Shown here one piece after another: positions 2,960 to 46,518 of a stretch of DNA of 54,351 nucleotides. Numbering within the stretch: the stretch's first letter is position 1; each line of letters begins with the position of its first letter. Made by a program: the position numbers and the translations under genes. Origin of the DNA: an uncultured Bacteroidales bacterium (GTDB lineage: Bacteria; Bacteroidota; Bacteroidia; Bacteroidales; Paludibacteraceae); contig CACXYM010000013.1 of NCBI GenBank assembly GCA_902771935.1, positions 1 through 54,351 of the forward strand, in the 5' to 3' direction. The notes under the pieces are model-generated. The model worked only from the letters and a program-made list of their open reading frames with translations, ran no database searches and had not been told where the DNA came from.

Positions 2960-5900
2960 ATGAGAAATTCAATGAAATCGTTTACTCTTTTGACGAAACC
3001 CCTCGTCCTTTTCGTGCTGCTGTTCGCTTTGGGTGTAGGGCAGATGTGGGCTGGAAATAGACGAATATATTTCGACTATTCATTAGTAACGATGTGGGAT
3101 GACTATACTAATTTGAGCGGCGGAGCAGGTTTTGCATGTGTTCACTGTTGGGGAGGTAATGAAGGAGCTGCGGACTATACCATGTCGGTTGTTGAAGGAA
3201 AGTCGTATCTCGCATGCTGTGATATTGATGATGAATGGACACATATGTGTTTCTACAGAAAAGGAAGTGATGGCACATGGTGGACGAAGACATTTGACTA
3301 TGATAATTTCGGATCCAAAAACTATTTCAAAATTAAAAACGATTCGGAGAAAGATGGCGGTATAGATAAGTATAAATGGGATAGTGCCACGCGTTGGGTT
3401 CCTGGTGTTTGCATTGATGGTTTGATTAATGTGAATAATCCTCACCTCCAACCATTTACGTTTGATGATAACGATGGTACATACGAGGTTACTTTAAGCG
3501 CTCACACAACGTATCAGTTCTGCATTTTGGATGGTTCTACAAGATACACTGTGGACAATAATGTGTGGTCTGGTACGATTCCCGGATATACCTTAGGAAC
3601 AACGGGTTATGATATTCGTTTGGCTACAGCCGGTGCGGGAACCTATAAATTTGAGTATAACAAGAGTACGCATGTAATGAAGGTGACTTATCCAACCGTT
3701 AATCACCCCAATATCGATTATTGCTATTTATACAAATTCAATGATTGGACGCATCATTATTTGCATATTTACGATAGTGAGAGTAGTATTGAAGGAACAA
3801 CATATCCGGGTACTGAAATCGAGAATTATTTTGAAATTGGAGATGATAAATACTATTATTTCGCTCCGGGTGATTATGCGAATTGTCAACCGAATGATAA
3901 TAATGATAGTCGAAAAGTGAATCCTGCAGCATCTACGTCTGCGGGTCTTGGTAAATTCCAAAAATATATAACCGACAGTTGGGGTTGGCGTACCTTCACT
4001 GTCCGAATCCAATTGGAGAACGAGGATGCAACAAGTGCCGGTACAGAGTACCAGGATATAGCCTTCAACTCCGCTGTCCTGTCGGATATTACATGCTCTT
4101 CGAAGACGCATTACGATTTCCAAGGCTATTATACAGGAGATGGCGGAACCGGTACGCAAGTCATCGACAAAGACGGTCACTGGATCGCTTCTGTAGCTGA
4201 TTATACGGATGCCAGCAAGCATTGGATTCATGCAGGTATGTCAACTACTCTGTACGCCAAGTGGACGGAGCACGAGTATTCGCTCACAATCAATGTAGAA
4301 CCGGCAGGTGCCGGTACGGTAAGTCCATCACCGACCACAGTCAAATATGTAACCCCGACGGCACTCCTAACAGCCACACCCTCCACCGATGCTTATATCT
4401 TCAAAGAGTGGCGGTATTCCACTAATTTAGGACCTGTCAGCGGAACCGGTTTGGATAATACGGTGCAAGTAACTGCTTCACAGAATGGCACATTAACAGC
4501 CGTCTTTGAACCCCGCTTTACCTTGGTAGGTTCAATTCACGATAACTCCGGAAATGGTGGCATGCCGGGATGGGACGATTATACGGCTGTATTTACGATT
4601 AATACCGTTAGCCCCCTCAATGCGACTTGTACGCGCAAGTTAGACCCGAATACCACCTTCAAATTCGAAGTCCACGACAAGACAGGTTCGGGACGCAATC
4701 TGGGCCATTCACCGGCGGGAGAATATATTGGAAACAATTCGTGGGAATGTAATACGCAAAACAGCGATATATATCTCCGTGCAACAGGTCACGGTGATTA
4801 CACCTTCACCATCTCGGCTGTACGAGCCGATAACGGTAATTACTATCCAACTGTCTCTGTCCGCGGTCCGGATTCGCACTTGATGAACTTAGGTTGGGGA
4901 CATGCCGAGATAGATAATCCGAGTTCTGTTACACATGGTAAGGATAACGGAGGCACTGTGTCTGCGAGAACTACCGAGAGCGGCGATAACTATGATATTC
5001 ATAATGGCGAGTATGTAGCCCACGGAGGAACGATTACCTATACGCCCAATGCCGCAAGCGGTTATTCGTTTGACGGATGGTACTCATCCAATGCGTATTC
5101 AGGAGATCCATTTAGCCGCAATAACCCTTGGGAGCATACCAATGTGACTAGTGACGATAATGTCTATGCTAAGTTCTTAGAAAACTCCACCTCTGTCACC
5201 CTTGCCAACGACGGGCACGGAAAAGTGCAGATAAACGGTGTGGATAAAACCAGTACCACTTGCGGTATTGCAACCCATCGCAACTTAACTGCAGTGCCTG
5301 CCGACGGATATATGTTCAGCAGTTGGACCAAGACTTCCGGCGACGATATAAACATTTCCAGCACCAATACCAACCCGACCACCTTAAGCGGTAATGGTGC
5401 CGGCGCCTCGTCTGGCCAAACAGTTACAGCCAACTTCACACAACGTTGGGTTTTGAAAGCCGAGTCAGTAGGATGGGGAAGTGAGACCTTCACTATCAGT
5501 AATATCACAGATATTAGCGGCAAAGCCGTCGGCTATGTAGATATAGAGTTAGCTGCCAATACGAACTATCAGTTCACGATGAAAGATCTCCAGACTAATG
5601 CTATCTACAAGAACAACGATGTGGCGGTACAATACATGACCTATACAAACCATACCGATTGGGGATTCGCTACGAATATGACCTACAACTGCGGTATCAC
5701 AACGGCCGGTAAAGGTACTTATCGTTTCTCTTGGAACATCACGGACAAGACCATGACCGTCACCTATCCGACGTCCTATCAAGTCAACTACGGTGCTTCG
5801 GTTGGCGGTAGTGTCACGTCTGTAGTAGATGGTCAAGGTAATGCCGTTCCGAATGGCGGATATGTTGTTGCTGGTGGTTCGGTTACCTATACCGCTGCGG

Positions 5901-6865
5901 CAAATAACGCTAACTATACCTTCGTTGGATGGTGTAATAACGACTCGTACGGAAATACGTTCACAAACTATAATCCGTGGACCAATAGCAACGTACAAGC
6001 TACTTCCAATGCCTACGCCAAGTTCAAATCCACCAACTTCGTCATCTATCGCACCGGCGATATGTCCTCTGACCCGCGGCGGGCTTATGATGATGTAGAA
6101 TCCTTTGCCGGCGGTGCGGTGAGCGAGACTATCGAGTTCCGTATGAAAGTGAGCCGACTCGACCAGTGGTATACCCTCTGCCTGCCGTTCACAGTCAGTG
6201 CCGTCAAAGTCTGGGACGAGGATGACCAGGAATATTACGACATCAAACCGTATTATCGTGCCTCTATGTCAGATCCTCTCAGTGGCGGACATTATATCAT
6301 CCGTACACCGTCCGGCACCACTGACTTCCCCATCGCCAACTTCGACGATTGGAGAGACCCCACAAGCCAAACCGGCTATCTCCCAACCAAGGGCGCACCC
6401 TATATCATCCAATGGCATATGGACTATTTCCGGAATAGGTATGTATCCTTCTTTGGAAATGCACAAACTATTGCTTCTGACTTCAATGCGGGTGCTGACG
6501 CATCAATCGATAATGCTGTTAATGTGTATGGAAACAATACTATGCATACTGGTTCTGTCACCGGCGCATACCTGCTTGACCCGGATTATGGAAGCAGTGG
6601 CGCTTGGTTGCGCGATGAGAATGTGAGCGCTAATCGTACCATCCTGCCTTTTGAGTGCTTTATTCGTGCTAATAGTGCCACAAGAGCCAAGTATCGTGTC
6701 ATTCGTCCCGACATGGAAATCGAAGATATAAATACCGGTGGCTTACCTGTAACCGATAAAACGTTATCCATCACCCGCAAGATAATCATCAATAACCAAT
6801 TGTACATCATCCGCGAAGGTAGAATATACACTGTTCAAGGAACATTAGTGAAGGAGGCGGAGTGA
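2960..6865 (+). CDS. Large secreted protein with bacterial repeat domains and a C-terminal sorting-like tail
   Basis: 1301 aa with a signal peptide (about residues 1-31, cleavage near QMWA/G). Two modules of similar sequence, about residues 165-245 and 835-937, each end in a TYKFEYN/TYRFSWN strand followed by a K-x-M-x-VTYPT strand, resembling starch-binding modules of exported Bacteroidota proteins. An InlB/Listeria-Bacteroides-type repeat lies near residues 365-435 (GYYTGDGGTGTQVID). Four glycine-rich bacterial repeats follow near 435-520, 640-725, 727-800 and 938-1025, with motifs such as GYSFDGWYS and YTFVGW and an N-A-Y-A-K-F ending. The last 30 residues form the NQLYIIREGRIYTVQG tail shared with three other proteins here. 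Context suggests a surface or secreted glycan-binding partner of GH66/GH97; no catalytic domain was recognised. Confidence 0.8.
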   Translation: MRNSMKSFTLLTKPLVLFVLLFALGVGQMWAGNRRIYFDYSLVTMWDDYTNLSGGAGFACVHCWGGNEGAADYTMSVVEGKSYLACCDIDDEWTHMCFYRKGSDGTWWTKTFDYDNFGSKNYFKIKNDSEKDGGIDKYKWDSATRWVPGVCIDGLINVNNPHLQPFTFDDNDGTYEVTLSAHTTYQFCILDGSTRYTVDNNVWSGTIPGYTLGTTGYDIRLATAGAGTYKFEYNKSTHVMKVTYPTVNHPNIDYCYLYKFNDWTHHYLHIYDSESSIEGTTYPGTEIENYFEIGDDKYYYFAPGDYANCQPNDNNDSRKVNPAASTSAGLGKFQKYITDSWGWRTFTVRIQLENEDATSAGTEYQDIAFNSAVLSDITCSSKTHYDFQGYYTGDGGTGTQVIDKDGHWIASVADYTDASKHWIHAGMSTTLYAKWTEHEYSLTINVEPAGAGTVSPSPTTVKYVTPTALLTATPSTDAYIFKEWRYSTNLGPVSGTGLDNTVQVTASQNGTLTAVFEPRFTLVGSIHDNSGNGGMPGWDDYTAVFTINTVSPLNATCTRKLDPNTTFKFEVHDKTGSGRNLGHSPAGEYIGNNSWECNTQNSDIYLRATGHGDYTFTISAVRADNGNYYPTVSVRGPDSHLMNLGWGHAEIDNPSSVTHGKDNGGTVSARTTESGDNYDIHNGEYVAHGGTITYTPNAASGYSFDGWYSSNAYSGDPFSRNNPWEHTNVTSDDNVYAKFLENSTSVTLANDGHGKVQINGVDKTSTTCGIATHRNLTAVPADGYMFSSWTKTSGDDINISSTNTNPTTLSGNGAGASSGQTVTANFTQRWVLKAESVGWGSETFTISNITDISGKAVGYVDIELAANTNYQFTMKDLQTNAIYKNNDVAVQYMTYTNHTDWGFATNMTYNCGITTAGKGTYRFSWNITDKTMTVTYPTSYQVNYGASVGGSVTSVVDGQGNAVPNGGYVVAGGSVTYTAAANNANYTFVGWCNNDSYGNTFTNYNPWTNSNVQATSNAYAKFKSTNFVIYRTGDMSSDPRRAYDDVESFAGGAVSETIEFRMKVSRLDQWYTLCLPFTVSAVKVWDEDDQEYYDIKPYYRASMSDPLSGGHYIIRTPSGTTDFPIANFDDWRDPTSQTGYLPTKGAPYIIQWHMDYFRNRYVSFFGNAQTIASDFNAGADASIDNAVNVYGNNTMHTGSVTGAYLLDPDYGSSGAWLRDENVSANRTILPFECFIRANSATRAKYRVIRPDMEIEDINTGGLPVTDKTLSITRKIIINNQLYIIREGRIYTVQGTLVKEAE

Positions 6866-6866
6866 G

Positions 6867-7253
6867 ATGAGACGATTATTATGCATATTGTTTTGCTCAT
6901 GGGGCCTCGCTGTTTATGCTGCGGACTATACAGCCTGTGAGTCTTTAAAACCGCCTACAATCGCTATACAGTCAGTCAATAATACGGAATACATGACCAC
7001 TGGTAGCACATACAGTTCCGAAGTCTATGACGTAGGCTCAAATAGTCCGACAACGCGCTCCTCATCCGTCCGCAAAGCCGGAGGTCCGGGCGGTGGAGAT
7101 AACAGTGGCTATGACCCCAATAACCCGCAATTTGCTCCCCTAGGCGATGCCATCCTGCCGCTCTTGCTCTTGGCTCTCGCTTTCATGGGACTGATCTATC
7201 TGCGCAAATCAAAAAATATAAATCATCAAACATCAATCACAAATGACAAATAA
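6867..7253 (+). CDS. Small exported protein with C-terminal membrane anchor (PLGD motif, TM helix, basic end)
   Basis: 128 aa, starting 1 nt after the stop of the large secreted gene, with a purine-rich GGAGGCGGAG just ahead. It has a signal peptide (1-18, ending VYA), a Ser/Thr-rich middle, and a Gly-rich stretch (AGGPGGGDNSGYDPNNP). Near residues 91-113 it has APLGDAILP followed by a hydrophobic helix, then LRKSK. This order (short conserved motif, one helix, basic cluster) recalls the PEP-CTERM class of C-terminal anchors; I believe similar PxGDG-helix-Arg tails occur in Bacteroidales proteins. Function unknown. The stop lies in a tandem of ACAAATG-type heptamers that also forms the start of the transporter fragment. 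Confidence 0.65.
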   Translation: MRRLLCILFCSWGLAVYAADYTACESLKPPTIAIQSVNNTEYMTTGSTYSSEVYDVGSNSPTTRSSSVRKAGGPGGGDNSGYDPNNPQFAPLGDAILPLLLLALAFMGLIYLRKSKNINHQTSITNDK

Positions 7254-7566
7254 CAAATCCAATTTCCTCCCCATCGCGGTAATGTTTGCGCTATTCTTCA
7301 TGATAGCCTTCGTTACTAATTTCGCGGGCTCAATGGGCATTATCGTAAAGCACCAGTTTCACGCAAGCAACGCCCTCTCACAACTCGGCACGTTTGCCAA
7401 CTTCATCGCCTATGCCTGCATGGGGATTCCTGCGGGTATCCTGCTCAAGCGCAAGGGCTATAAGTTCACATCCTTAACGGCTGTCACGGTCGGACTTGTC
7501 GGAGTCGGTATCCAATGGCTCAGTGGCTACGCAGGGTCTTTTGCCATTTACCTCGTCGCAATTTGA
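7243..7566 (+). pseudogene. MFS sugar-type permease, truncated after 107 residues
   Basis: Begins at ATG 7243, overlapping the preceding gene by 11 nt. It encodes the first three or so transmembrane helices of a major facilitator of the fucose/glucose permease type: FAGSMGIIVKHQF, then FIAYACMGIPAGILLKRKGYK, then helix GLVGVGIQWLSGYAG. A full family member has about 400 residues and twelve helices, but the frame stops right after FAIYLVAI. No continuation is visible in the other frames downstream, where a terminator and the repeat island follow. Most likely a remnant left by a deletion or rearrangement at the island edge; an assembly break is the main alternative. Confidence 0.7.
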
Positions 7567-7608
7567 AGGATATACACAATAAGGATTATTCCGATGTGTA
7601 AAACATTC

Positions 7609-7638
7609 AGAGTGGGGCTTATGCCTCGCTCTTTTTTC
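7609..7638 (+). terminator. Rho-independent terminator after the truncated permease
   Basis: A 9-bp stem (GAGTGGGGC / GCCTCGCTC, two G-U pairs) with a TTAT loop is followed directly by TTTTTTC. It lies 43 nt downstream of the permease stop and would end transcription of the glycan locus. Confidence 0.75.
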
Positions 7639-7862
7639 TTCACTTTCCACTTTCCGCCTTCCATTGCTTATACCTTGTGTCTTTCCCACCTTATCCCAGC
7701 TTGTCTCTTTTTTCTTGCCGTTCTCACACAAAAAATAGACAACCAATTACCCACCTTCCTCTCATCCACCTTCTATATGTCATACCTATACCTTGTATAA
7801 ATTTCTTTTTCCCTTTTTTATACAATCCTCCTGGTATCTATCTTATATTCAATCACTTACAT

Positions 7863-7927
7863 AGTAGCATGTATCTTTTTTTCTCCAACCAACACCACAA
7901 ACCACACAAAAATAAATACATGCTCCT
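7863..7927. repeat. Stem-loop repeat, copy 1
   Basis: The left half AGTAGCATGTAT and right half ATACATGCTCCT pair at 11 of 12 positions around a loop rich in T, then CCAAC/ACCACAAACCAC, then A. First of three full copies in the island. Confidence 0.7.
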
Positions 7928-7957
7928 CTCTATCCCCTTTATTTACTACCATCCTCC

Positions 7958-15967: not shown

Positions 15968-17530
15968 ATGAAACGGATACTTTTTTTCTGCTTAGGTTTG
16001 TGCTTGACCTGCTTGATTCAAGCGCAGACTCGTATTGCAGTTATTGCTGACCCGCACGTGTTGGCAGAATCACTTTTTGATGATGGTTCGGCTTTTGAGG
16101 AAGCGAAGAGTGGTAATCCTCGCGTAGTGGAATATAGCCAGCAACTTTTTGATAGTGCTGTGGCAGTTATTGCTGAGCAACGTCCTGACTTGGTGTTTAT
16201 TGTGGGCGACTTGTCGAATGACGGCGAGAAAGTGAGCCATCAGCATATTGTGGCTAAATTGAAGGAACTGCAAATAGCCGGTATCCAACCCATAATTATT
16301 CCTGGTAATAATGATATAGCCAATAAGAACGCCTATCTCTATCAGGGTGATAAAAAAGTCCAAACCGAATCTGTCTCTCAAGCTGAATTTGAGTCCCTAT
16401 ACAGTGATTTCGGCTTGTCTCAGGCTGTGAGCCGCGAGCAAGATAGCTTATCGTATATGGTTTACCCGAACGATAAATTAGCAGTCCTTTGTCTCAATAG
16501 TGCGAAGAAGAATACACCAACACAGCAGTATAACGAAGGCGGAATATACGAATCGACTTTGGCTTGGGCTGAAAAAGCTGTTGCGCAGGCAAAGAAAGAT
16601 AATCGTATGATTCTTGCGCTTATGCACCACCAAGCAACCAATCACTTCAATATGGAGGAGGATATGACTCCGAGTTATGTGGCAAATACTACTGATGAGT
16701 ATCCCGCTTTGGAGGAGCTGCAGACGCGTCTTCTTGCTGCCGGAGTGCAAGTGGTGTTTACCGGCCATTACCACATGACCAGTATCAAGCACACACTTAA
16801 TGAGGGCAGACAACTCTATGATGTTGGTACCGGTTCGCTCTCGTCCTATCCGTCGCCTATTCGTTGGCTCACATTATCCGATGACGGACAACTGAATATC
16901 ACTACGCAGGTTATCGACACCTACCATACCTTAGAGCAAACTCGCAACGAGAACACCGCCCAAGGTATCATCAACCGCGTAGCCGATAAGGCATTCCCTA
17001 AGCTGGAAGAGGTGCAGAATAGTCTCATTTATCAGACGATGCTTAAAAAATGGGGACTTTCTTTTGACGACTTCAACCTGCCGAAGACCAAGTCCCAGAT
17101 GATTGATGAGATGTGTGGCTCGATGCTGCCGTCAATGACGCTTCTGGTCAACGAACTCTCACGCGGCGATGAGCACACTCGTACGCCTGAAGAGCATCTG
17201 CAACAGTGCATGGATGGCTTTGATCATTACATCACCCACACTATCTGTCGGGATAACGAAGAACTTGGTCCGCTATTGTTGGTGCTTGTGGCAGAGTACC
17301 GCGACATGCTGCAGGATATGTGTAAGAGTGTCTTCTTTAACTATGTCGGCAACGATCCGACACAAGTAGTGCCGGATAACACGAATATTTTGCAGATAGA
17401 CGCTCCGGTAACAACTAAGTTGCAGGAAATCAATGACATGCAGCCGGCTGAGAAAGTGCTTAAGGACGGACAACTCTATATTCGTCAAAATAACCAATTA
17501 TTCGACGTTGTAGGAAAGCGGGTAGAGTAA
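15968..17530 (+). CDS. Secreted calcineurin-like metallophosphoesterase with C-terminal sorting-like tail
   Basis: 520 aa; signal peptide 1-18 ending LIQA, with Gln predicted as first mature residue. The metallophosphoesterase motifs are complete: ADPHV (28-32), GDLSNDGE (about 80-87), GNND (about 112-115), MHHQ (about 219-222) and GHYH (about 268-271), so a two-metal site is expected. The substrate is unknown; cyclic-nucleotide phosphodiesterases and sphingomyelinase-like enzymes share the fold. A helical region follows the domain. The last 26 residues (KVLKDGQLYI, then QLFDVVGKRVE) match the tail of three other secreted proteins here. Stop overlaps pcrA start (TAATG). Confidence 0.85.
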   Translation: MKRILFFCLGLCLTCLIQAQTRIAVIADPHVLAESLFDDGSAFEEAKSGNPRVVEYSQQLFDSAVAVIAEQRPDLVFIVGDLSNDGEKVSHQHIVAKLKELQIAGIQPIIIPGNNDIANKNAYLYQGDKKVQTESVSQAEFESLYSDFGLSQAVSREQDSLSYMVYPNDKLAVLCLNSAKKNTPTQQYNEGGIYESTLAWAEKAVAQAKKDNRMILALMHHQATNHFNMEEDMTPSYVANTTDEYPALEELQTRLLAAGVQVVFTGHYHMTSIKHTLNEGRQLYDVGTGSLSSYPSPIRWLTLSDDGQLNITTQVIDTYHTLEQTRNENTAQGIINRVADKAFPKLEEVQNSLIYQTMLKKWGLSFDDFNLPKTKSQMIDEMCGSMLPSMTLLVNELSRGDEHTRTPEEHLQQCMDGFDHYITHTICRDNEELGPLLLVLVAEYRDMLQDMCKSVFFNYVGNDPTQVVPDNTNILQIDAPVTTKLQEINDMQPAEKVLKDGQLYIRQNNQLFDVVGKRVE

Positions 17531-21744: not shown

Positions 21745-24700
21745 ATGAGAAGACTTACTTTTATTGTAGCTTTGATAGCTGCGTTTGTGATGGTGGCAAA
21801 TGTTAACGCTGCCTATTTTGTACAGTTTGAGCCTCATCAGCACTCGACCTTTAGTGCCACGTTGAACGGCACTACTTTCTATGGTGGAGTGGTGAATATA
21901 GGTGACGAACTGAGTGTGACATGGAAGTCGAACGCCGGTTGGCTTTTCGATGACAATGATGGCACAGAGTTGTCGATGAAGAGCGCATTAGCTGCTACGG
22001 ATTTTGACTCTGATGATGTGTGTCGGATTAATGAGCCGGGTATGCATCAGGCGAAGCCGAAGGTGATGGTACAATTGCTCTCCAAAACGAGTGCCCAAAT
22101 CATGTGGGATAATCCCGGTGGTACGTTTTCTGCTTATCGTCTTTGGGTTAGTTTAGATAAGCTTTCGGGTAATCCGGACTATTGGAAAGGAACCGTTGAA
22201 ACGGATAAGCAGACTTATACGGCAACGGATTTGTTTGAAGACGAAACGTACTATGTTTACCTTCAGGGCGGAGATCTGAATGGCTACACGAGTGAAATCG
22301 TGATGATGGAATTCAAGACTCACGAGCCGGGCAATCCTTGCGAGTACATCATTGAAATGTCTGATAGATTCGGTGACGGATGGAACGGTAATGGACTTTT
22401 AATTAAAGAAGGCATTTCAGAGACGTTCATCACTTTATTAGAAGGCTCAACAGGTACAGAGAGTTATATCAGTCAAGGTTATGACGTAGAAATATCCTGG
22501 GTAGTGGGAAGTTATGCGGATGAAGTGTCGTTTACTATCAAGAATGGTGACGGCATAGAGATCATGAAAGTGAATGATCCCAACGCTTACTATCTCAGCG
22601 ATGGTGAGGTTCTTTTCAGCGGTAAGATTTGCAATATTCCGACGTGTGCAAGTACGGTTAGCGGTATTAACTGGGAGTTGAATGCTGATAGTACGGAATA
22701 TACTATAACGTGGGCTGGTGTAGGTGCTGCAAGTTACGAAGTTGCAGTAGTTCAGAAGACTCATATGACTCAAGCCGATATAGAAGCCGCAGCTAAGCCG
22801 GCATCTACTGAGCAATTTAAGTTTGCTGGTAAGCCTCACGGCATCTATGATGTGTTTGTTCGCGGTATTTGTGCCGATGGTGTTAAAGGCTTGTGGAATC
22901 ATATTCAGATTTGCGATATACTGATTTCTAAGCCTACTGATGCTCAGATTAAGAGTTATTCTAAGAACATAACGTTGGATTACGAAGAAAAAGCGGACCT
23001 TACAGCGACTGCATATGCAAATGGACCGTCAGCAAGTGAGCTTTATCCGATTGTGATTTATCACTTGGTCGTAGCGGATTCTATGGATGTGGAGTTTGTG
23101 TTTAATCCGTTCGAATACATGAGTTACGGCTTTATTCTTTTCCGTGATACACTTGCCGGTGCTCCACTTGATCTGTTTACTGGGTTTAGCAGTAACGAGG
23201 TTGTTCGTATGAAGGGCGATTATTATATCGTTCTACAAACGGAGAAGTTAGGCGAGTACTCACTTTGCATCCAAAAGCGTAAAGAACTTGTTGCGACACC
23301 AGTTACGTTGCCATTTGAGAAGAGTGGTGCATTTGTTGATGCGCCATTTTATAGTGCTCCTACAATGCCTTATGGTAAGTGCGTAGCTTATAAGTTTACT
23401 CCGACGGATACTGTGGATGTCATGATTTCGACGTTTACAAATAATAGTTATGGTGGCGTTGGTCTAAATGTGTATCAGCGTGTAATAAGCGACAAGACTC
23501 AAAAAATCAGTATCCCTGGAGGTGGTACGGAGATTATGACCTTCCTGAAGGATACGACGTATTATTTGGTACTATTGTCAATTCCGGATTATGGTGGTTC
23601 CCCAGAAACGGATACCTTTGCCATCAAAGCAAAGATTATACCTGCTGCCCCAGTTCCTACTCCAGTAGAAACAATAACCATGGATTATGTGAGCAAAGTA
23701 TCGTTTGACGAAGACGATTACATTCCTGAAGCTTACATGACAGGAAAAGTATTCCGCTACGTGCCAGAGAAAGATATGCAGGTAAGTATTTCTATTGAAC
23801 TGTTGGGCGATAAAGCTGATGACCAAATGTTGCAGCAATATTTAGGGATAGTTATCAATAAAGATAGCCTTACTGGAGATCGTGTTACAGATGCTTGGGC
23901 AAATTACACTTATGGCGAACTCACTCCGGAGTTGAAACAAGGAATTCCTTATTACTTTGTTGTAGGTAGTCGCTCGAATTTGTCTATGACCGGTTATGTT
24001 TCAATTCGTGCATTACCGAATTGGGATGTTGTTGTAGCATCAGCTTCTTCCATTGAGGTAGGTCAACGGCAAGAATTGGCTTTGAATTATTCGGACGATC
24101 CACTCACGAATGAGGGAGCCTATGCAAATAACTATGGCTCTTACCGCGCTTACAAGGTACATCTTGAAAAAGACCAATCTTATAAAATCATATCTCACGC
24201 TTTGTATGAATATTCGAATGAGACATACAATGATAGGAGCTATGAAGTTACGGTATTCAATCCCGCTGTGACGACCGGTTCATTTGAAGATCGTAGACTT
24301 ACATACAGTAATTCCGTTTATGACGGATGGAATGTGATTAATCTGACAGCTTCGGAGACTGCAGACTATACCATTATTGTCGGTGCTCCGTTAGATCTCA
24401 AGTGGCGAGAGGACTATTTCGTTATAGAGTTTGCTGTTGAACCGGTTCAAGATATTGAAGAAGTGATCAATGCTGCACCGCAAATAACTGCGCTTCCGTA
24501 CGTGAAAGAAGGCCAGTTCGTGAACAATGTGATGGCAACAACTAACTCCAGTTTGTATTTCCACCGCAATGCGTCATCCTTTATTGAGGAGTTAGGCGCA
24601 TACAACGTAGAAGCCTGCAGGGTAGAAGTTATGCCAGGCGATACATTGTTCTTCGAGTTTGGTGGCGATGAAGACGCCATGATTCATATCTACAACAATG

Positions 24701-25293
24701 CATTACCAATAGATGACAAGAACCCGATTATTGTGGACGAGGTACACTATGCGTTCCCGTATGAAAAAGGCTTTGTGGTTAACGAGGATATTGATCCGGT
24801 TAAGTTCACTATTGTCGGTTCGTTCGCCAATGTTGAACTTGAGAAAGGCTTGTCTTATACGTTCCGCGTTTCCACCAAGGGCGCTGATCTTGAGCCCGCT
24901 GTTGTTACAGCTGTTGCCAGCAAGACCAGCATTCAAGTGAAAGAAGATGCGACTACGGAAGAAATAATGATGGCACTGGCCGGAGTAACTGTCTCCGCTT
25001 TGGACAAAGATGGCAAAACACTCTTCGGCATAGATGTACTTCCGCACTTGTGGACACTTGACTTGACCACCAATACGGCTCAGTATGAACTCAGCAATAT
25101 TGATTTGCCTGTAGGATATACGTTTGCGACTCCAAAAGTATGGATTAAAGTGGCAATCGAATGGATTCCTACGAGTATTGAGGCAGTTGAGCAAGTTGCT
25201 CCTGCTGCTCCGCGCAAAGTGATTCGTGAAGGACGAATTCTCATTCTGACTCCGAATGGCACATTCGATATGTTCGGCAGAAGAGTCGAGTAA
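21745..25293 (+). CDS. Large secreted FN3-type protein with C-terminal sorting-like tail
   Basis: 1182 aa; signal peptide 1-22 (ending ANVNA). A fibronectin type III domain lies at about residues 103-190 (SAQIMWDNPGG, SAYRLWVS, LFEDETYYVYLQGGD). Next comes a module opening with MSDRFGDGWNGNGLLI (about 205-300), a pattern seen in Bacteroidota surface proteins, then another FN3-like unit (about 305-390). Residues 400-1090 hold repeated beta-sandwich-like units with TYYLVLL, YYIVLQTE and YYFVVGS strands, reminiscent of pre-peptidase C-terminal domains. The end (KVIREGRILIL, then TFDMFGRRVE) matches the shared tail of three other exported proteins. Probably a surface or extracellular adhesin-like protein; no catalytic motif seen. 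Confidence 0.8.
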   Translation: MRRLTFIVALIAAFVMVANVNAAYFVQFEPHQHSTFSATLNGTTFYGGVVNIGDELSVTWKSNAGWLFDDNDGTELSMKSALAATDFDSDDVCRINEPGMHQAKPKVMVQLLSKTSAQIMWDNPGGTFSAYRLWVSLDKLSGNPDYWKGTVETDKQTYTATDLFEDETYYVYLQGGDLNGYTSEIVMMEFKTHEPGNPCEYIIEMSDRFGDGWNGNGLLIKEGISETFITLLEGSTGTESYISQGYDVEISWVVGSYADEVSFTIKNGDGIEIMKVNDPNAYYLSDGEVLFSGKICNIPTCASTVSGINWELNADSTEYTITWAGVGAASYEVAVVQKTHMTQADIEAAAKPASTEQFKFAGKPHGIYDVFVRGICADGVKGLWNHIQICDILISKPTDAQIKSYSKNITLDYEEKADLTATAYANGPSASELYPIVIYHLVVADSMDVEFVFNPFEYMSYGFILFRDTLAGAPLDLFTGFSSNEVVRMKGDYYIVLQTEKLGEYSLCIQKRKELVATPVTLPFEKSGAFVDAPFYSAPTMPYGKCVAYKFTPTDTVDVMISTFTNNSYGGVGLNVYQRVISDKTQKISIPGGGTEIMTFLKDTTYYLVLLSIPDYGGSPETDTFAIKAKIIPAAPVPTPVETITMDYVSKVSFDEDDYIPEAYMTGKVFRYVPEKDMQVSISIELLGDKADDQMLQQYLGIVINKDSLTGDRVTDAWANYTYGELTPELKQGIPYYFVVGSRSNLSMTGYVSIRALPNWDVVVASASSIEVGQRQELALNYSDDPLTNEGAYANNYGSYRAYKVHLEKDQSYKIISHALYEYSNETYNDRSYEVTVFNPAVTTGSFEDRRLTYSNSVYDGWNVINLTASETADYTIIVGAPLDLKWREDYFVIEFAVEPVQDIEEVINAAPQITALPYVKEGQFVNNVMATTNSSLYFHRNASSFIEELGAYNVEACRVEVMPGDTLFFEFGGDEDAMIHIYNNALPIDDKNPIIVDEVHYAFPYEKGFVVNEDIDPVKFTIVGSFANVELEKGLSYTFRVSTKGADLEPAVVTAVASKTSIQVKEDATTEEIMMALAGVTVSALDKDGKTLFGIDVLPHLWTLDLTTNTAQYELSNIDLPVGYTFATPKVWIKVAIEWIPTSIEAVEQVAPAAPRKVIREGRILILTPNGTFDMFGRRVE

Positions 25294-28792: not shown

Positions 28793-29749
28793 ATGAAAAG
28801 ATATGTTGTTCTTTTATGCGTATTGGTCGGATTTGCTGTAGCTGTAAAGGCTCAGTTTGACCCGCAGATAGGACAATATATGTATTTACCAACAGCCTAC
28901 AATCCTGCAGCGGCAGGAGAAGGGGACTTGATGAAAGTGGCGGGCATGCACCGCATGCAGTATGCAAATATCCAGAATGCGCCGATGACCACTTATTTCA
29001 GTTTTAGTTCTCCGTTTGTGATAGGCAAGACAAAACACGGAGCCGGAATCCGTTTTATGAATGACAGATACGGATTGTTTACCAATCAAACGCTACATGC
29101 GCAATATACCTACCGGCACAAGTTGGGAAAAGGTTATTTAAGCGCCGGTGTGGACTTAGGCTTTGTGAATGTCGGATTTAAAGGAGATAGTGTCAACTTG
29201 GACCAATTGTCGGAGTCGGATTATTTCGATGCGAACGATCAAGCCATTCCGAAAGGCGCTAAGTCGGGAATGACGTTCGACATGGGAGTAGGTGTGTACT
29301 ACACGACCGGCGTTTGGTGGGTTGGAGCCAGTTATAGCCATTTGACACAACCCGTTGTAGAGTGGGATGACTACGCGGAAATACACTTGCGAGGAACTCT
29401 CTACGCGGCAGGAGGCTATAACCATAGGTTTAAGTTCCACAAAGAATGGCAACTGCGTGCGTCGCTGATGATGATGACGGATTTTGCCTCGTGGGATATC
29501 AACGCAACACTGCTCTGCGAATACAAAGACCGATATCGTTGGGGCTTGGGCTACCGAATAGCCGGAAGCGTAAACGTGCTGCTGGGAGTGGATATTATAT
29601 CGGGATTGACATTAGGATATACTTGCGAGTTGCCACATAACCACCTCTTGTTAGAGAGTTACGGCACGCACGAGATATACTTGGCCTACGGATTCAATAT
29701 CCTCAAGCCGAAACGAACCAACAAATATAAGAGCGTAAGGTTCTTGTAA
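28793..29749 (+). CDS. porP: Type IX secretion system membrane protein PorP/SprF family
   Basis: 318 aa; signal peptide 1-20 (VAVKA) with Gln as predicted first mature residue. Outer-membrane beta-barrel of the PorP/SprF family: the signature FDPQIGQYMYLPTAYNPAAAGEG follows the signal directly, then QYANIQNAPMTTYFSFSSPF, and alternating aromatic strands continue to the end (YGFNIL). PorP-family proteins work with PorK/N and, in other species, help attach surface proteins. It opens the canonical porPKLMN order, so it is probably the core PorP rather than a substrate-paired SprF. Confidence 0.92.
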   Translation: MKRYVVLLCVLVGFAVAVKAQFDPQIGQYMYLPTAYNPAAAGEGDLMKVAGMHRMQYANIQNAPMTTYFSFSSPFVIGKTKHGAGIRFMNDRYGLFTNQTLHAQYTYRHKLGKGYLSAGVDLGFVNVGFKGDSVNLDQLSESDYFDANDQAIPKGAKSGMTFDMGVGVYYTTGVWWVGASYSHLTQPVVEWDDYAEIHLRGTLYAAGGYNHRFKFHKEWQLRASLMMMTDFASWDINATLLCEYKDRYRWGLGYRIAGSVNVLLGVDIISGLTLGYTCELPHNHLLLESYGTHEIYLAYGFNILKPKRTNKYKSVRFL

Positions 29750-29778: not shown

Positions 29779-31128
29779 ATGAAAGTCACTAAATTGTTGT
29801 CTGTTATGGCACTGGTTGCTGTCTTTGCAGCATGCAACAAACCTGCCGGTGAATTGGTGGGTGTTGCTAATAGTGCACAGTTTAAGGAAGCGAATCCTTA
29901 TGGTATGGTGTTCATCCGCAAAGGTTCATTTATGATGGGTGCAAACACACAGTCTGCTATTTTCGAACAGCAAGACAATGTGTACATGGCTACCGTTGAA
30001 GCCTTCTGGATGGACGAGACAGAAATCACAAACAACGAGTACAAGCAATTCGTTAACTACGTTCGCGACTCTATTGCTCTCACAAACTTGGTAGAAGCCG
30101 GTATGACCGACTATGCTGTTCAATCTAAGAACGAGGACTTCGACGAGGAGAACTACAGACTGAACTGGAAAATGAAAATTCCATGGAGCAGTGATGACGA
30201 AGAAGTTCAAGAGGCTCTTGCACCCATGTATTTCGAAGGTACAAGTACGCTGAACACGAACCACCTGACGTATCGCTACAGCTGGATTAACTACGACCAA
30301 GCTGTTCTTCCGAGTAACAAATTCGATGTGGCTCGCGGTTGCTATCCTCCAACAGCAATTGCTCGCGTTGATACCGCATGGATTGACGAGAATGGTGCTA
30401 TCCAAGAGAAAACCATTGAGCGCCCGTTGCGTTCTCCGAAAGACCTGCTCACCAACAAGATTATCTGCGTGTATCCCGACACCATGGTTTGGGTACGCGA
30501 CTTCCAATATTCGTTCAACGATCCTTTGATGCAGAAATATTTCTCGCACCAAGGTTATCTGGAGTATCCTGTTGTAGGTGTTACGTGGGAACAAGCTCAT
30601 GCTTTCTGCCACTGGCGCACTAAATTCTTCCAGGAGCACACTCGTGCTAATTCACAAGAGTATCGTTTGCCGACAGAAGCTGAGTGGGAGTACGCAGCTC
30701 GCGGTGGCCGTAAGATGGCTATGTATCCGTGGGGTGGTAACTACGCTCGCGATGCAAAGGGCTGCTTCTTCGCAAACTTCAAACCTTATCGTGGCGCCTA
30801 TAACGATGATACCGGAACCGCTACATGCAAAGTGGCTCAGTATCGTCCAAATGACTTTGGTCTGTTCGATATGGCAGGTAATGTGGCTGAGTGGACAGCT
30901 TCCGCTTATCAACCGGTTGCTAACACTAACGTGCATGACTTGAACCCCAACTACTGCTATATGGCACGTATCGACGATCCGGATATTCTGAAAAAGAAAG
31001 TGGTGAAGGGTGGTAGCTGGAAAGATATCAGTTACTTCCTCCAATGCGGTGTGCGTACTTACGAGTATCAATATCAAACACGTCCATACATCGGATTCCG
31101 TTGCGTTCGTTCGTATATCGGCGATTGA
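29779..31128 (+). CDS. porK: Type IX secretion lipoprotein PorK/GldK
   Basis: 449 aa. Lipobox VFAAC (lipid on Cys19). The body is a formylglycine-generating-enzyme/sulfatase-modifying fold: PYGMVFIRKGSFMMG (40-54), FWMDETEITNNEYKQFVNYV, PVVGVTWEQAHAFCHWR, YRLPTEAEWEYAARGG, DMAGNVAEW and the C-terminal GFRCVRSY. In PorK this fold is structural; the protein forms outer-membrane-attached rings with PorN. Downstream of porP by 29 nt and upstream of porL by 61 nt. Confidence 0.95.
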   Translation: MKVTKLLSVMALVAVFAACNKPAGELVGVANSAQFKEANPYGMVFIRKGSFMMGANTQSAIFEQQDNVYMATVEAFWMDETEITNNEYKQFVNYVRDSIALTNLVEAGMTDYAVQSKNEDFDEENYRLNWKMKIPWSSDDEEVQEALAPMYFEGTSTLNTNHLTYRYSWINYDQAVLPSNKFDVARGCYPPTAIARVDTAWIDENGAIQEKTIERPLRSPKDLLTNKIICVYPDTMVWVRDFQYSFNDPLMQKYFSHQGYLEYPVVGVTWEQAHAFCHWRTKFFQEHTRANSQEYRLPTEAEWEYAARGGRKMAMYPWGGNYARDAKGCFFANFKPYRGAYNDDTGTATCKVAQYRPNDFGLFDMAGNVAEWTASAYQPVANTNVHDLNPNYCYMARIDDPDILKKKVVKGGSWKDISYFLQCGVRTYEYQYQTRPYIGFRCVRSYIGD

Positions 31129-31189: not shown

Positions 31190-32164
31190 ATGGCAAAAAA
31201 AGAATCAGGCTTCATCCACTGGTATGAATCCTATCAAGGAAAGAAAGTAACCGGTATCGTTTATTCAGCCGGTGCATCCGTCGTAATTATCGGTGCGTTG
31301 TTTAAAATCATGCACTTCCCTGGTGCTGGTCCCGTGCTGATGACCGGTATGATTACCGAGTCCCTGTTGTTTATGATAGGTGTATTGGATAAACCACATC
31401 AGGATTTCCACTGGGAGAATGTATTCCCGCAAGTGTGCGGTTACGGTACAGAACCGGAGTATTTGGCAGAGTTACAATCTCGTCCGCGTCCGACACTGCT
31501 TGGCGCAGGAATGGAAGAAGGCACCGTTGCTCCGACTCCGACTGAGGAGAAAAAGCAAAAAGCTAATGTTCCTGCTCTGACAGATGAAGATATGAAAGCG
31601 TTGAAAGACGGTATCGACGGTTTGGCTAAGACAGCTGTTCAACTCCAAGATCTCGGTAAGGTAGCAGTCGCTTCTAATAAGTTAGGCGAAAAGATGGAAG
31701 CTGCCGGTGAGAAAGTGGAGGCTGCAAGCGACAAGATGGCTGTTATCGGTGAGGCTGCAGCTAAATTCGCTGCTTCTTCTGATGCTGTATCTAAGAAAAA
31801 TGAGGAACTCAGTGCTGCTTATGGTACTATCGTTACCGATATGCAAGGTGTTGTTACTGAAACTAAGAACCTGCAGAAGGGCGTTGAAGGTATCGGCACG
31901 AAACTTAGTTCGCTGAATTCTGTATATGAACTTCAACTCGCTGCTCTGCAAGCACAAGTAGATGCATACAAACTTCAAACGACTCAAGTCACAGCTGCAA
32001 CGGACCAAGTGAAAGCGATGACGGCTGACGTACAAAAGATGCAAGCATCTATCAACGAAGCTGCGAAGGAGCAAGCTGCTTATGAAGCATCCGCTAAGAA
32101 ACTGGCTCAGCAAGTAGCTGACCTGAATAAGGTTTATGGCAATATGCTTAGTGCTCTCGCGTAA
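31190..32164 (+). CDS. porL: Type IX secretion inner-membrane motor protein PorL/GldL
   Basis: 324 aa. Two membrane helices (about 20-40 and 46-64) separated by HFPGAGP, then a long cytoplasmic part predicted as coiled coil (about 120-320, rich in Ala, Lys, Glu and heptads). Helix 2 carries the buried Glu57 (MITESLLFMIG), the position tied to proton-driven rotation in GldL. With PorM it forms the 5:2 motor powering secretion. The N-terminal GFIHWYESYQGKK is conserved in the family. Confidence 0.95.
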   Translation: MAKKESGFIHWYESYQGKKVTGIVYSAGASVVIIGALFKIMHFPGAGPVLMTGMITESLLFMIGVLDKPHQDFHWENVFPQVCGYGTEPEYLAELQSRPRPTLLGAGMEEGTVAPTPTEEKKQKANVPALTDEDMKALKDGIDGLAKTAVQLQDLGKVAVASNKLGEKMEAAGEKVEAASDKMAVIGEAAAKFAASSDAVSKKNEELSAAYGTIVTDMQGVVTETKNLQKGVEGIGTKLSSLNSVYELQLAALQAQVDAYKLQTTQVTAATDQVKAMTADVQKMQASINEAAKEQAAYEASAKKLAQQVADLNKVYGNMLSALA

Positions 32165-32247: not shown

Positions 32248-33792
32248 ATGGGTGGAGCAAAAAACTGTCCGGAAACCCCGAGACAAAGAATGATAGGTAT
32301 GATGTACTTGGTGCTCACCGCCATGTTGGCGTTGAACGTCAGTGCTGCCATCCTCAATGGTTATCTGCAGGTGGACGAGAGTTTGCATGCAACCATTGAG
32401 ACTACTGAAAGTGGTAACATTGACGTTTACGAGCGCTTCTCCAATGCATATAGCCAAAACCCCGGCAAAACGCAAGAGTGGTACGATAAAGCCATGCGCG
32501 TCAAGGAAGAGTCGGACAATTTGTACAAATACATTGCTGACTTTAAAGATGCTATCGTTTTTCTCGCTGACGGCGATAAGGCTGTTAAAGGGGCAACAGT
32601 TCGTCAAATCAAGAAACGTGACGATACTAACATTCCTCACCAATATGGTATTAACGAAGGCCATGCGACTGAACTGAAAAATCGTATTGGTGCTTATCGT
32701 GAACTCTTAAAAGAGGTGGCTGATGATCCTGAGGTAAATGAGGATATTGACAAGATGTTCGCTACTGCACCTGGCCAAAATGCTGATGGTAAGCAGATTT
32801 CGTGGGAGCAAACAGTCTTTGAAGAAATGCCGGTTTGCGCAACAATCACTGTGTTGACAAAAATCCAAAACGATATTCGTACCTACGAAGGTAAAACCGT
32901 TCAAGTATTGCTCAACAAGACTGATGCTGGTGACGTACGTGTGAACAAAATGGGTGCTTATATCATTCCTTCATCCGAGTATGTGCTTCGCGGAAGCAGA
33001 TACCGTGCACAAATCATCTTGGCCGGTATTGACTCAACCAAATCTCCTGAATACTACATCAACGGTGAGAAAATCAATGACAATGGTATTTATGAGGTAG
33101 TTGCATCTGGTATAGGTGAGAAACATTATAAAGGACAAATTGCATATCAGCATCTCGGTGAGACGGTTTATCTGCCGTTTGAAGGTAAATATACTGTAGG
33201 TGAACCGACCGCTACTATATCCAATACAGACCTCAATATTATGTATCGTGGATATAATAACCCGTTCAGTATCTCTGTTCCCGGTGTATCAAGCGACAAA
33301 CTGCAAGTGCGTTGTCAGGGTGCATCTATTATGAAGCAGAATGGTCTATGGATTATTAAACCAGGTTCCGGCGGTGGCGATAAGATGACTATTGAAGTCT
33401 TAGCCGAAGTGGATGGAAGAATGAGCGTAATGGGTTCGCAAGTATATCGTGTAAAACGCCTTCCAAAACCGGATGCATACTTTGAAATTAATGGCCATCT
33501 GTCTGAGGAAACGAAGATTGCGCGTGCTGCCTTGCTCAATCCTTCTAACAGAATTGTAGCATCCTATGGCGCAGACGGACTCATCCAGGCTAAGTTTACC
33601 ATTACCGGTTTCCAAGTGAAGCTTCCGACAGGTGCATCTTTCAATATCAAGGGTGACAAACTGGATGCTAAATCACTGGAGGCTATTAAGAAACTGAAAC
33701 AAGGTAACATGGTTAACTTGCAGTATATCAAGGCCGTTGGTCCTGATGGAAGAGAAATCCAATTGCGTGGTCTACCTATTGAACTTAATTAA
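32248..33792 (+). CDS. porM: Type IX secretion motor/periplasmic shaft protein PorM/GldM
   Basis: 514 aa. The opening CPETPRQRMIGMMYLVLTAM and the single helix (about 14-36, ending LNVSAAIL) are diagnostic. A helical D1-like domain (about 40-220) and beta domains D2-D4 follow (GAYIIPSSEYVLRGSRY, EYYINGEKI, NPFSISVPGV). PorM dimers span the periplasm and contact the PorK/N rings. The 83-nt gap after porL is the longest inside the operon. Confidence 0.95.
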   Translation: MGGAKNCPETPRQRMIGMMYLVLTAMLALNVSAAILNGYLQVDESLHATIETTESGNIDVYERFSNAYSQNPGKTQEWYDKAMRVKEESDNLYKYIADFKDAIVFLADGDKAVKGATVRQIKKRDDTNIPHQYGINEGHATELKNRIGAYRELLKEVADDPEVNEDIDKMFATAPGQNADGKQISWEQTVFEEMPVCATITVLTKIQNDIRTYEGKTVQVLLNKTDAGDVRVNKMGAYIIPSSEYVLRGSRYRAQIILAGIDSTKSPEYYINGEKINDNGIYEVVASGIGEKHYKGQIAYQHLGETVYLPFEGKYTVGEPTATISNTDLNIMYRGYNNPFSISVPGVSSDKLQVRCQGASIMKQNGLWIIKPGSGGGDKMTIEVLAEVDGRMSVMGSQVYRVKRLPKPDAYFEINGHLSEETKIARAALLNPSNRIVASYGADGLIQAKFTITGFQVKLPTGASFNIKGDKLDAKSLEAIKKLKQGNMVNLQYIKAVGPDGREIQLRGLPIELN

Positions 33793-33803: not shown

Positions 33804-34745
33804 ATGAAGAAGTTATGTATTATCGCGTGCTTGATGCTCGGCTTGTCGGTCGCAGAAGCACAACATTATGTTAATCCTTTCTTTGATTCTAAGGGTTCGG
33901 CGCGTATTTCTGTGGAAGAGTACACTCCTGCGAAAGACACCATTATTAAAACGTTCCACCGCAATGAGGACGTTGTATGGGCTCGCTACGTCTATCGCAT
34001 CATTGATATGCGTCAGAAGCAGAACTATCAGCTCTATTTCCCGGCTCAACCGGACGATCCAGACTACCGTTCCCTCTTCCGTGTGATTTTGGATGCTATA
34101 GTTGACGGACTGCCCATTTATGTTAAATCATCTGATGTAGGTGATATCAAACCTTATTTTGATAATGATCCTATGCCTCGTGAAATGGTTCCACCAATTC
34201 TGAACACCGACCGCGAAGGTGAAATGGGTGATGGAGATATTGCTACCTCAGACTATATGTTGCTCAACTACGACTCTACAACTAACGAGATGCGTTTCAA
34301 TAACTACTCCTATGCAGGTTTCGTACGTAATCAGTATAAATATCTGATTCAAGAAGTAGTGTTCTTCGACCGTCACACCTCGCGCATGCACCAGAAAATT
34401 ATCGGTATTGCACCTCTGCAGGCTGATAACGTGGTATATTATGAGGATATGCCTGTGATGGATGCATTGTACGGACAGATTCTGTTCTGGATTGCGTTCG
34501 ACGAATTGCGCCCGTATTTGGCTCAACAGTTCGTTATCCCGTCACAGAACGAAACGAAACGCGTTACCTATGACGAGTTCTTCCAGAAGCATCTCTATAC
34601 CGCATATATTGTGGGTGAAGGAAATATGTATAACCGCATGATTCCTGATGCGCAATACGGATATACGGCTAAAGAAGTGAAACGCGAGCAAGCTCGTATC
34701 GAAGCTGAACTGCTTGATTTCGAACAAGATTTGTGGGAATATTAA
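33804..34745 (+). CDS. porN: Type IX secretion ring protein PorN/GldN
   Basis: 313 aa; signal peptide 1-19 (SVAEA) with Gln next. Family segments: NEDVVWARYVYRIIDMRQKQNYQLYFP (about 53-79), SLFRVILDAI, MLNYDSTTNE-type linker and FDELRPYLAQQFVIPSQNETKRVTYDEFF. PorN pairs with PorK in the periplasmic ring. Last gene of the operon; a terminator follows 8 nt after the stop. Confidence 0.95.
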   Translation: MKKLCIIACLMLGLSVAEAQHYVNPFFDSKGSARISVEEYTPAKDTIIKTFHRNEDVVWARYVYRIIDMRQKQNYQLYFPAQPDDPDYRSLFRVILDAIVDGLPIYVKSSDVGDIKPYFDNDPMPREMVPPILNTDREGEMGDGDIATSDYMLLNYDSTTNEMRFNNYSYAGFVRNQYKYLIQEVVFFDRHTSRMHQKIIGIAPLQADNVVYYEDMPVMDALYGQILFWIAFDELRPYLAQQFVIPSQNETKRVTYDEFFQKHLYTAYIVGEGNMYNRMIPDAQYGYTAKEVKREQARIEAELLDFEQDLWEY

Positions 34746-45066: not shown

Positions 45067-46518
45067 TTATTCAACTATTTGTCCTGTTATAGTGTATGTT
45101 TGTCCGCGACGAATGATATACATCTGCCCGTCACGAATGATTTTATTACCGGAGTGCTCGGAAGCACCTTTTGACTTTTGACTTTCGACTAAACCTCCCG
45201 TCGGGTCATACTCTTCCGGCTCATCTTGGTCCCAGGGACGCACGTATTGGTCGTTATTCTTCACATTGCGCACACCGGGTTTCTGCAGATACAGCGGATT
45301 AGTTTTGTCGTTGAGCAGTTCGCCCCACACTTTGACCATTTGTCCAATCAGTTGCGGGTTATCTACCACATTCAGCGCATTGCGGGCATCACCGCTCACC
45401 AGTTCCACGGTCACCACTTTGCTGTAGTCCGTCTCGCCGGCTTGGGCTGCCAGTACAAGCGAGGTCTTGTCGTTGGTGCATACGCCGTCAAACTGGTCGG
45501 TGTTATACCGCTTCACGGCTCCTAATACGTACCCTTTCACCCAATAACGTGTCTCCGCCCAAACAGTGCCTGGATTATTAGCAAGTAGTATCACGTCGCC
45601 TACCGTGTACGGGTCCATCCGTTTGCCGCTGCCTTCCAAATCTAGTGCGCTCACTTCGGCGCCGATATTGATTTTCTTCGTCACTTTCGTGCCATTCTTA
45701 CCTGTAGCGCTCAACTCAATCGTTGCGCTGTACCTTTCGGCTGGAGCACCTTCGCCAAACGATACCGTCAGTTTGCCTCCTTCAGACGATAACGACCGCA
45801 TATTGGCTGCAAAATAGTATCCGTCGTTATTGGTGAAGTTCACCGTGATACCACTGCTCAGGTTTGTTCCCACTACCTGCACGTTAGCATATTGCGTCGT
45901 GTAGTTCTTGCCTAAGAAACCCAGGTCAACTAACGGGCTCGACATCAGTCGAATAGCCGGTTCATCCGGATCCGGCGGCAGTAATGTCACATCGTCTAAG
46001 AAGAAACGATGCTTATTCACCGAGAAGAATTTAATCTTCACGCCGCTGGTCACGTCCGTGATATTCACACGGATATCGGTCCACTTGTTCTTCTTGAGTT
46101 CAAAAGCCGCTTTGTCGGGTGTTCCGCCTGTCACTTGAATGTTCATCAGCGAATCGCCTGTCCAAGGGGCTGCGCGGAAGGTCAGCACCACATCGCCCGT
46201 GCAACTAATGGTCGGCGTTGTCACGTGTCCTGCATACTTGCTGTGTCCCACTTTCACGCACTGATAGGCACCGTAGGCATAACTGTCTGTCCAGTTCTGA
46301 TTATCTGTCAGCACAACACCTTTTGCGATATTGCCGCTGAACTGATTGTCATTACCACCTGTATAACCCATGTCTTCATAGTCATGCGAACCGGGAGTGC
46401 CGTAACCGATACACTGGTCAAACGACTCATAAAACAAAACGACATCCTGAGCCCTCATCGTGCTCCCAAGCACCATACTCACGCATAAAACCACTAATAA
46501 TAATAAGTTCTTCTTCAT
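45067..46518 (-). CDS. Secreted DUF6359-like protein with C-terminal sorting-like tail
   Basis: 483 aa; signal peptide 1-23 (STMRA) with Gln predicted next. Domain 1 (about 25-165) looks like a jelly-roll/cleaved-adhesin type sandwich ([25 protein letters not shown]). Domain 2 (about 180-275) is an Ig-like sandwich ([11 protein letters not shown]). Domain 3 (about 285-405; [41 protein letters not shown]) resembles DUF6359, an OB-fold-like unit. A linker with VESQKSKG, encoded by GTCAAAAGTCAAAAG-type repeats, leads to the shared tail ([14 protein letters not shown], then YTITGQIVE). Function unknown; not usually linked to valS, which follows it directly. Confidence 0.8.

Follow-up and report, generated by a model that had tools for sequence, protein, structure and literature searches.

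A short C-terminal tail as a candidate minimal type IX sorting signal in one genus of the Paludibacteraceae

What is the short ending shared by four exported proteins that are encoded beside a set of type IX secretion genes? The question is raised by a 54,351-nucleotide stretch of DNA (contig CACXYM010000013.1 of assembly GCA_902771935.1, positions 1 to 54,351 of the forward strand; hereafter the window) from an uncultured Bacteroidales bacterium of the family Paludibacteraceae. The original prediction, made from the sequence of the window, had offered three answers for this tail: a minimal sorting signal, a lineage-specific type of C-terminal domain (CTD) of the type IX secretion system (T9SS), or an anchor. 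From the searches, alignments and structure models described below we conclude that the tail very probably serves as a minimal sorting signal for the T9SS and has taken the place of most classical CTDs in one Paludibacteraceae genus, and we infer its secretion, PorV binding, cleavage and strand pairing. The first two answers are supported as a single one by the C-terminal position of the tails, the signal peptides of the proteins that carry them and their genus-limited abundance. A stand-alone anchor is not supported, because the tail by reading has neither a hydrophobic stretch nor a lipid-attachment site.

All four exported proteins are present where the prediction had placed them. They and their tails are as follows (window coordinates):

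2960..6865, + strand: 1301-residue cargo protein with InlB B-repeat-like domains
6779..6862, + strand: tail of the 1301-residue protein, KIIINNQLYIIREGRIYTVQGTLVKEAE
15968..17530, + strand: 520-residue cargo protein, a calcineurin-like metallophosphatase (ATG start)
17453..17527, + strand: tail of the metallophosphatase, KVLKDGQLYIRQNNQLFDVVGKRVE
21745..25293, + strand: 1182-residue cargo protein, without a confident domain
25216..25290, + strand: tail of the 1182-residue protein, KVIREGRILILTPNGTFDMFGRRVE
45067..46518, - strand: 483-residue cargo protein with DUF6359, a distant relative of NF052644
45070..45144, - strand: tail of the 483-residue protein, modelled by AlphaFold2 as three strands with a core predicted local distance difference test (pLDDT) score of 88-90

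Alignments of these proteins bear out the common ending, with K, I, G, V and the final E invariant in 4/4. When the four proteins were scanned with Pfam and NCBIfam at E ≤ 1, no family had its best stretch on a tail. At this threshold PF18962 (type A CTD) matched 0/4 proteins, TIGR04131 (type B) gave no match on the tails in the NCBIfam scan, and the four tails had no NCBIfam match to type C (ChiA-like) CTDs, a model of which that library probably contains. The 483-residue protein reached 112 bits against NF052644, a T9SS-dependent surface endonuclease family, which is below the cut-off of 260, and the 1182-residue protein has a cleavage-like motif, PT/SIE, about 15 residues ahead of the tail K.

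A hidden Markov model (HMM) was built from the four window tails and searched against the organism's own genome (2,056,016 bases, 2.06 Mb, in 46 contigs) at E ≤ 10. This search, from which the prediction had expected dozens of C-terminal matches on exported proteins, gave 72, of which 70 end 0-9 residues ahead of a stop with none of the 70 internal, so the shared ending is far beyond chance. The two exceptions were a partial match of 10 residues (E 0.73) and, at 47031-47081 of the window, an orphan fragment of a tail (E 0.83). A Sec signal peptide was assigned to 64 of the 70 frames by a crude rule scored without a control set; the remaining six comprise two with a signal peptide by eye, one that starts at a contig edge and three with none. 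Across the 70 frames the most conserved columns were G6 (66/70), Y/F17 (68/70) and G21 (68/70), with Q7 in 48, L8 in 51 and R12 in 39; the count was anchored on K1 and the central I10, so that the 100% of these two is partly imposed. One tail with an insertion (C15:12510) was excluded from the alignment and the motif counts, which use the other 69.

The bodies in front of the 70 tails form 35 families by single linkage, the largest of which holds 23 proteins. Domain scans took in 62 tail proteins (eight of more than 1400 residues were excluded), and Pfam assigned LRR_5 to 14, Endonuclease_1 to 4, Peptidase_C10 to 3, the purple-acid-phosphatase N-domain to 3, alpha-amylase to 2, M6 peptidase to 2, metallophosphatase to 2 and subtilase (S8) to 1. 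Because of these Pfam domains, the set is, as far as sequence tells, the profile of an extracellular proteome. No CTD family stood among the top 25 of 50 Pfam families or the top 25 of 86 NCBIfam families found in the 62 proteins, and PF18962 was not among their 25 most frequent Pfam families.

The prediction of a porPKLMN operon in the window was confirmed, with all five genes above their NCBIfam cut-offs:

28793..29749, + strand: PorP/SprF-family protein (TIGR03519, 205 bits)
29779..31128, + strand: PorK/GldK ring lipoprotein (TIGR03525, 524 bits)
31190..32164, + strand: PorL/GldL motor protein (TIGR03513, 143 bits)
32248..33792, + strand: PorM/GldM motor protein (TIGR03517, 401 bits)
33804..34745, + strand: PorN/GldN ring subunit (TIGR03523, 158 bits)

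The nearest relatives of this PorL, at 83-87% identity, come from a goat-reticulum Paludibacteraceae metagenome-assembled genome and two Bacteroidales metagenome-assembled genomes, and the next seven are all from Paludibacteraceae. Elsewhere in the genome, PorU (1048 bits) lies on contig C7 with PorV (401 residues, 430 bits) directly downstream, and SprA (2648 bits) lies on contig C3, which completes the core T9SS (PorP/K/L/M/N, PorU, PorV and SprA). By eye, PorU has itself kept a C-terminus like that of type A CTDs.

Recognised CTDs in the same genome are scarce. PF18962 had two matches, one of them above the cut-off and neither on a tail protein, and type B (TIGR04131) had one protein above its cut-off, which is not a tail protein of the window. 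This type B protein is the 445-residue frame at L089 (G000:C1:65129), and the PorP of the window is possibly its shuttle. A further kind is the short CTD of Prevotella intermedia, in which three strands form a single sheet that corresponds to strands 3, 6 and 7 of long CTDs, in the order cleavage site, motif B, motif D, motif E (PMC11969387). Four short B-D-E CTDs of this kind were matched in the genome, three of them neighbours on contig C23 (L154, G000:C23:22400-29500; one, for example, ends APMFDVLGRKVNADYHGIIIQNGKKFIR) and distinct from the tail family; the trio may be a relic or a special-purpose cluster. With two PF18962, one type B and four short-CTD matches, the T9SS of this organism would have few recognised cargo proteins were it not for the new tail.

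The tail is concentrated in one genus. Among 61 genomes of the family, 21 carried one or more tails (E ≤ 0.01); the organism's own genus, with three genomes, had 72, 73 and 63 tails and the other 58 genomes had 0-13, whereas PF18962 matches (at most 77 candidates scored per genome) numbered 2, 3 and 4 in the genus and from 6 to at least 77 in the other 58. Because tails abound exactly where PF18962 matches collapse, the distribution points to a replacement of classical CTDs by the tail in this genus. PorU was found in 59/61 family genomes, including all three of the genus (the two misses are 82% and 88% complete), PorV in all three, and SprA in the two of them that were examined (not G341). 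Across the order, 15 of 295 genomes had a tail, two of them from the own genus and the other 13 with 1-3 matches each, several partial; across the phylum, it was found in 1/395, the organism's own genome. In these two surveys at most 28 and 21 candidates per genome, respectively, were scored, so the counts for tail-rich genomes are lower bounds. The tail is thus rare outside the genus and has no internal matches among the 70, where the prediction had named internal positions and abundance in genomes lacking porKLMN as signs to the contrary. SprA is present in 277/295 genomes of the order and in 14/15 of those with a tail; the sole exception, G290, has a partial match in a 33-residue frame. We considered this co-occurrence as support and set it aside as uninformative, because 277/295 genomes carry SprA in any case.

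In a tree of PorV from 20 genomes, the own genus groups with g192 (support 90/87), then with g191 (97/94) and then with g212 (92/89). Tails per genome along this lineage number 9 and 2 in g212, 13 and 9 in g191 and 12 in g192, and the tag may have risen stepwise along it, which a single-gene tree of modest support suggests and does not prove. Four PorV residues are diagnostic of the genus among the 20 sequences (G46A, R116T, F361V and L381M), and we judged them insufficient to claim co-adaptation of PorV to the tail.

Related cargo proteins carry different tags in different genomes. The relatives of the 483-residue protein in two sister genera (46% and 39% identity) have short CTDs in the order B-D-E; among 15 more distant matches, mostly to the DUF6359 part, four have type A-like CTDs by eye and one runs off its locus. 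For the metallophosphatase, G000, G341 and G298 use the new tail and G302, G332, G303 and G245 a short B-D-E CTD; the own genus holds both tags in different species, B-D-E at L133 (G245:C20) and the new tail at L127 (G341:C83). Among the tail proteins, two C10 peptidases and one subtilase have sister-genus matches at 22-35% identity (E 1e-20 to 4e-10; the subtilase match spans 92 residues); both sides have the same Pfam peptidase domains, and only the sister proteins end in PF18962 (53 and 54 bits).

Ahead of the tail, a [ST][AGS]I[DEQNS] motif similar to the PT/GI-like cleavage motif occurs in 17/69 tails (mean of 1.2 and maximum of 6 in 2000 shuffles), and in 15/17 it lies 13-15 residues ahead of the K.

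AlphaFold2 models of the tail have three strands joined by two-residue turns, with a core pLDDT of 88-90 for five sequences and 88-94 for one, behind a linker of lower confidence. From the two-residue turns we infer a meander with strand 2 in the middle. Against PDB sequences the tail HMM had nine matches, all weak (E 0.1 to 9.2) and none of them named as a CTD. Motif profiles of type A were then built from 19 CTDs (17 from sister genomes and 2 from the own genome; a duplicate of L002, as well as L108 and L115, was left out) and placed on the 69 tails: motif B scored best on the last strand in 67/69, while motif E fell on the first strand in 58 tails and motif D (with one extra residue) on the second in 59. 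In a column-permutation control (65/69 tails, four left out, 5000 permutations) the B score was reached in 2/5000 and the sum of B, D and E in 0/5000. Residue shuffles of single tails were rejected as a control in favour of column permutation, because the tails are related to each other and the z-scores were inflated. A profile of nine short CTDs likewise placed motif B at the tail end (0/4000 permutations). An independent hhalign comparison also aligned motif B with the end of the tail, at a probability of 35% (E 4e-4) for type A and of 78% (E 1.8e-5) for short CTDs.

By these comparisons it is well supported that motif B (YDxxGRxV) forms the last strand of the tail and closes the domain, strand 3 being [YF]-[NDT]-x-x-G-[QR]-x-[VI]. 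The assignment of strand 1, K-[VFI]-[IL]-R, to motif E and of strand 2, [ND]-G-Q-L-Y-I, to motif D is one that we lean towards slightly. The prediction had described the tail as lacking the GVYIV-type strand; this needs a small correction, since a GQLYI strand is present, and what stands is the unusual arrangement, in which YDxxGRxV, normally first, comes last. The order E-D-B in place of B-D-E is our preferred reading, with E and D suggestive only. In Ig-like CTDs strand G carries motif E, strand C motif B and the central strand F motif D. E-D-B is preferred because strand 2 should be central in the meander, as the motif D strand is in the Ig-like sheet, and because this one order explains all of the conserved residues K, G, I, Y and G. 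In an antiparallel sheet this order gives each strand the same neighbours and directions as B-D-E, so the PorV-facing surface would persist.

Several results pull the other way. The AlphaFold2 models have whole-model pLDDT values of 74 and 79 and predicted TM-scores (pTM) of 0.44 and 0.48, and their output gives strands and not the pairing of strands. Type A column permutations reach the E score in 172/5000 and the D score in 248/5000, each individually weak, and the hhalign probability of 35% against type A is low. With the short-CTD profile, motif D is not significant (1125/4000) and motif E scores best on strand 2, not strand 1 (327/4000). A Foldseek search of the modelled tail against the PDB returned 152 matches, none at E ≤ 0.001 and with no CTD among the titles of the best 50 of 152, a null that is weakened by the small size of the query (25 residues) and by the inability of such a search to see a re-ordered sheet. 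In 52/69 tails the strict cleavage-like motif is missing, and three of the 70 frames have no signal peptide even though they lie away from contig edges, by a rule that had no control set. Ten of the 15 distant matches to the 483-residue protein, and the metallophosphatase homologues of G343, G324 and G321, have no recognised CTD by eye, and the tag differences come from few cargo families and in part from paralogues or from matches at the domain level (22-35% identity).

Because the E and D assignments are individually weak, an order D-E-B, or an unrelated hairpin before motif B, is possible. With D-E-B the tail would still be a T9SS sorting signal, produced by circular permutation of a short CTD with its D-E hairpin moved before motif B. 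A terminal motif B fits D-E-B and E-D-B alike, the tail hairpin KIIRDGQLYIIR resembles the D-E hairpin GIVIQNGKKYLIK, and the placement of the short-CTD motif E profile on strand 2 agrees with it. We nevertheless consider D-E-B unlikely, since the two-residue turns imply a central strand 2 and the central strand of an Ig-like sheet carries D, not E; the type A profiles also favour E followed by D, and, when scored as a single unit, the D-E hairpin does not reach significance on the tail (653/4000).

Another explanation is an ordinary B-D-E short CTD that has diverged without rearrangement. The tail resembles the P. intermedia short CTDs described in PMC11969387 in being C-terminal on signal-peptide proteins about 40-55 residues from a cleavage motif, perhaps in the PT/GI-like cleavage motif itself (of which 17/69 tails have a candidate), in a single three-stranded sheet (whose pairing is here taken from the turns), and in a YxxxG motif B, a basic motif E and Y/I in motif D. 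The 38-40 residues counted from the cleavage-like motif, where present, the three strands and the common phylum would all suit such a descent, and GQLYIIRDGKTY can be read as a D-E hairpin. The P. intermedia CTDs differ in that motif B follows the cleavage site (PMC11969387), whereas in the tail it comes last. Against P. intermedia may also be set the composition of the own genome, with about 70 tails versus 2 PF18962, 4 short-CTD and 1 type B match. Simple divergence is improbable, as hhalign puts the C-terminus of the tail, and not its start, on the initial motif B of short CTDs, the permutation control gives 0/4000, and the genome keeps the three clear B-D-E short CTDs on C23 apart from the tail family.

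Under the preferred E-D-B order, cargo would be exported by Sec, with every later step reasoned from the known T9SS. The 25-residue tail would fold in the periplasm into three strands with two-residue turns, behind a flexible linker, and would be recognised via SprA and PorV, by passage through SprA and capture by PorV. The PorU sortase would then cut in the linker near [ST][AGS]I[DEQNS] and so remove the tail, after which the cargo would be released or attached to the surface. The tag itself would have spread through the genome as a 3'-end DNA cassette. The full proposal, that a reversed E-D-B meander of 25 residues keeps the PorV-facing surface, spread as such a cassette and came to mark most of the type IX secretome in a single genus, strikes us as evenly poised between right and wrong.

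The tail could instead be a tag for another surface sorting or anchoring system that happens to occur in T9SS-positive genomes. Its link to PorU or PorV is indeed indirect, and the presence of SprA in 277/295 genomes of the order takes the force out of co-occurrence. We hold this to be very unlikely: PF18962 falls to 2-4 per genome exactly where the tail expands, PorU and PorV are kept in all three genomes of the genus and SprA in both of those examined, related cargo proteins carry known kinds of CTD, and the tail by reading has no membrane or lipid anchor.

The spread of the tail as a 3'-end cassette is suggested by DNA similarity between tails whose bodies are unrelated. In total, 40 pairs of tail regions match at the DNA level (E ≤ 1e-3), some of them on related bodies (for example C9:51516 and C9:52961); on unrelated bodies (no body match at E ≤ 10), identity reaches 100% over 36 base pairs and 91% over 65 base pairs. 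Copying of 3' ends seems the simplest explanation, the alternative being shared codon use under protein constraint. The window also contains an orphan tail:

47019..47087, + strand: orphan tail fragment FIQRGNQLFNAQGARVK, which lies in a different reading frame from a small lipoprotein frame (about 46642-47031) and overlaps its 3' end

It has 85-89% DNA identity over 46-54 base pairs to three cargo tails elsewhere in the genome, and a short repeat of its final bases comes after it. Tails also occur in very short frames at G341:C4:22364-22438 (28 residues) and G317:C212:20011-20094 (31 residues), perhaps as orphan cassettes. That the tail is only a selfish or neutral cassette inserting at gene 3' ends, with no sorting role, would fit the orphan and the DNA shared by unrelated bodies and is the least credible explanation of all, given 70 matches in frame within 9 residues of a stop and mostly on signal-peptide proteins, the retention of K, G, I, Y/F and G at the protein level across divergent tails (K and I being anchors of the count), and the fact that the tail takes the place of a needed signal.

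Other features of the window were noted in passing. Positions 6866-9247 are a 2.4-kb region poor in open reading frames, with a small one at 6867-7253 whose start is signal-like and which contains a second hydrophobic stretch, and a short frame at 7243-7566 that by eye resembles the start of a transporter. An inverted repeat gives the identical translated sequence AGRACSPRRLRLLSAPAPRPPTS in frames 8218-8403 (+) and 9077-9241 (-).

Set beside the established CTD types, the tail shares with type A (PF18962/TIGR04183) the machine (PorU, PorV and SprA), motif B, and C10 peptidase and subtilase cargo. It differs in having 25 residues and three strands, where type A has about 70-80 residues and seven strands, and in ending with motif B, with which type A and the published short CTDs open; PF18962 has no match on the tails. 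Such endings probably occur in database proteins of gut Bacteroidales. A search of the open-licence PMC literature found no earlier description of this tail, of a re-ordered CTD or of a Paludibacteraceae CTD. Type B (TIGR04131) and type C (ChiA-like) CTDs are, like the tail as read here, C-terminal signals of T9SS cargo (PMC10202324); reviews, as represented by the part of PMC10202324 used here, name types A, B and C only, and PMC12618676, in its part used here, concerns type B CTDs.

If the reading is true, we know of no shorter T9SS signal and of no earlier one with re-ordered motifs, and nature would here have run an experiment which suggests that PorV recognises a surface rather than a sequence order. 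As a search model, the tail HMM finds about 70 probable secreted proteins per genome in this genus. A 25-residue tag that probably folds by itself would be a convenient reporter for T9SS recognition, and the tail would offer a way to study how an entire secretome exchanges one sorting tag for another.

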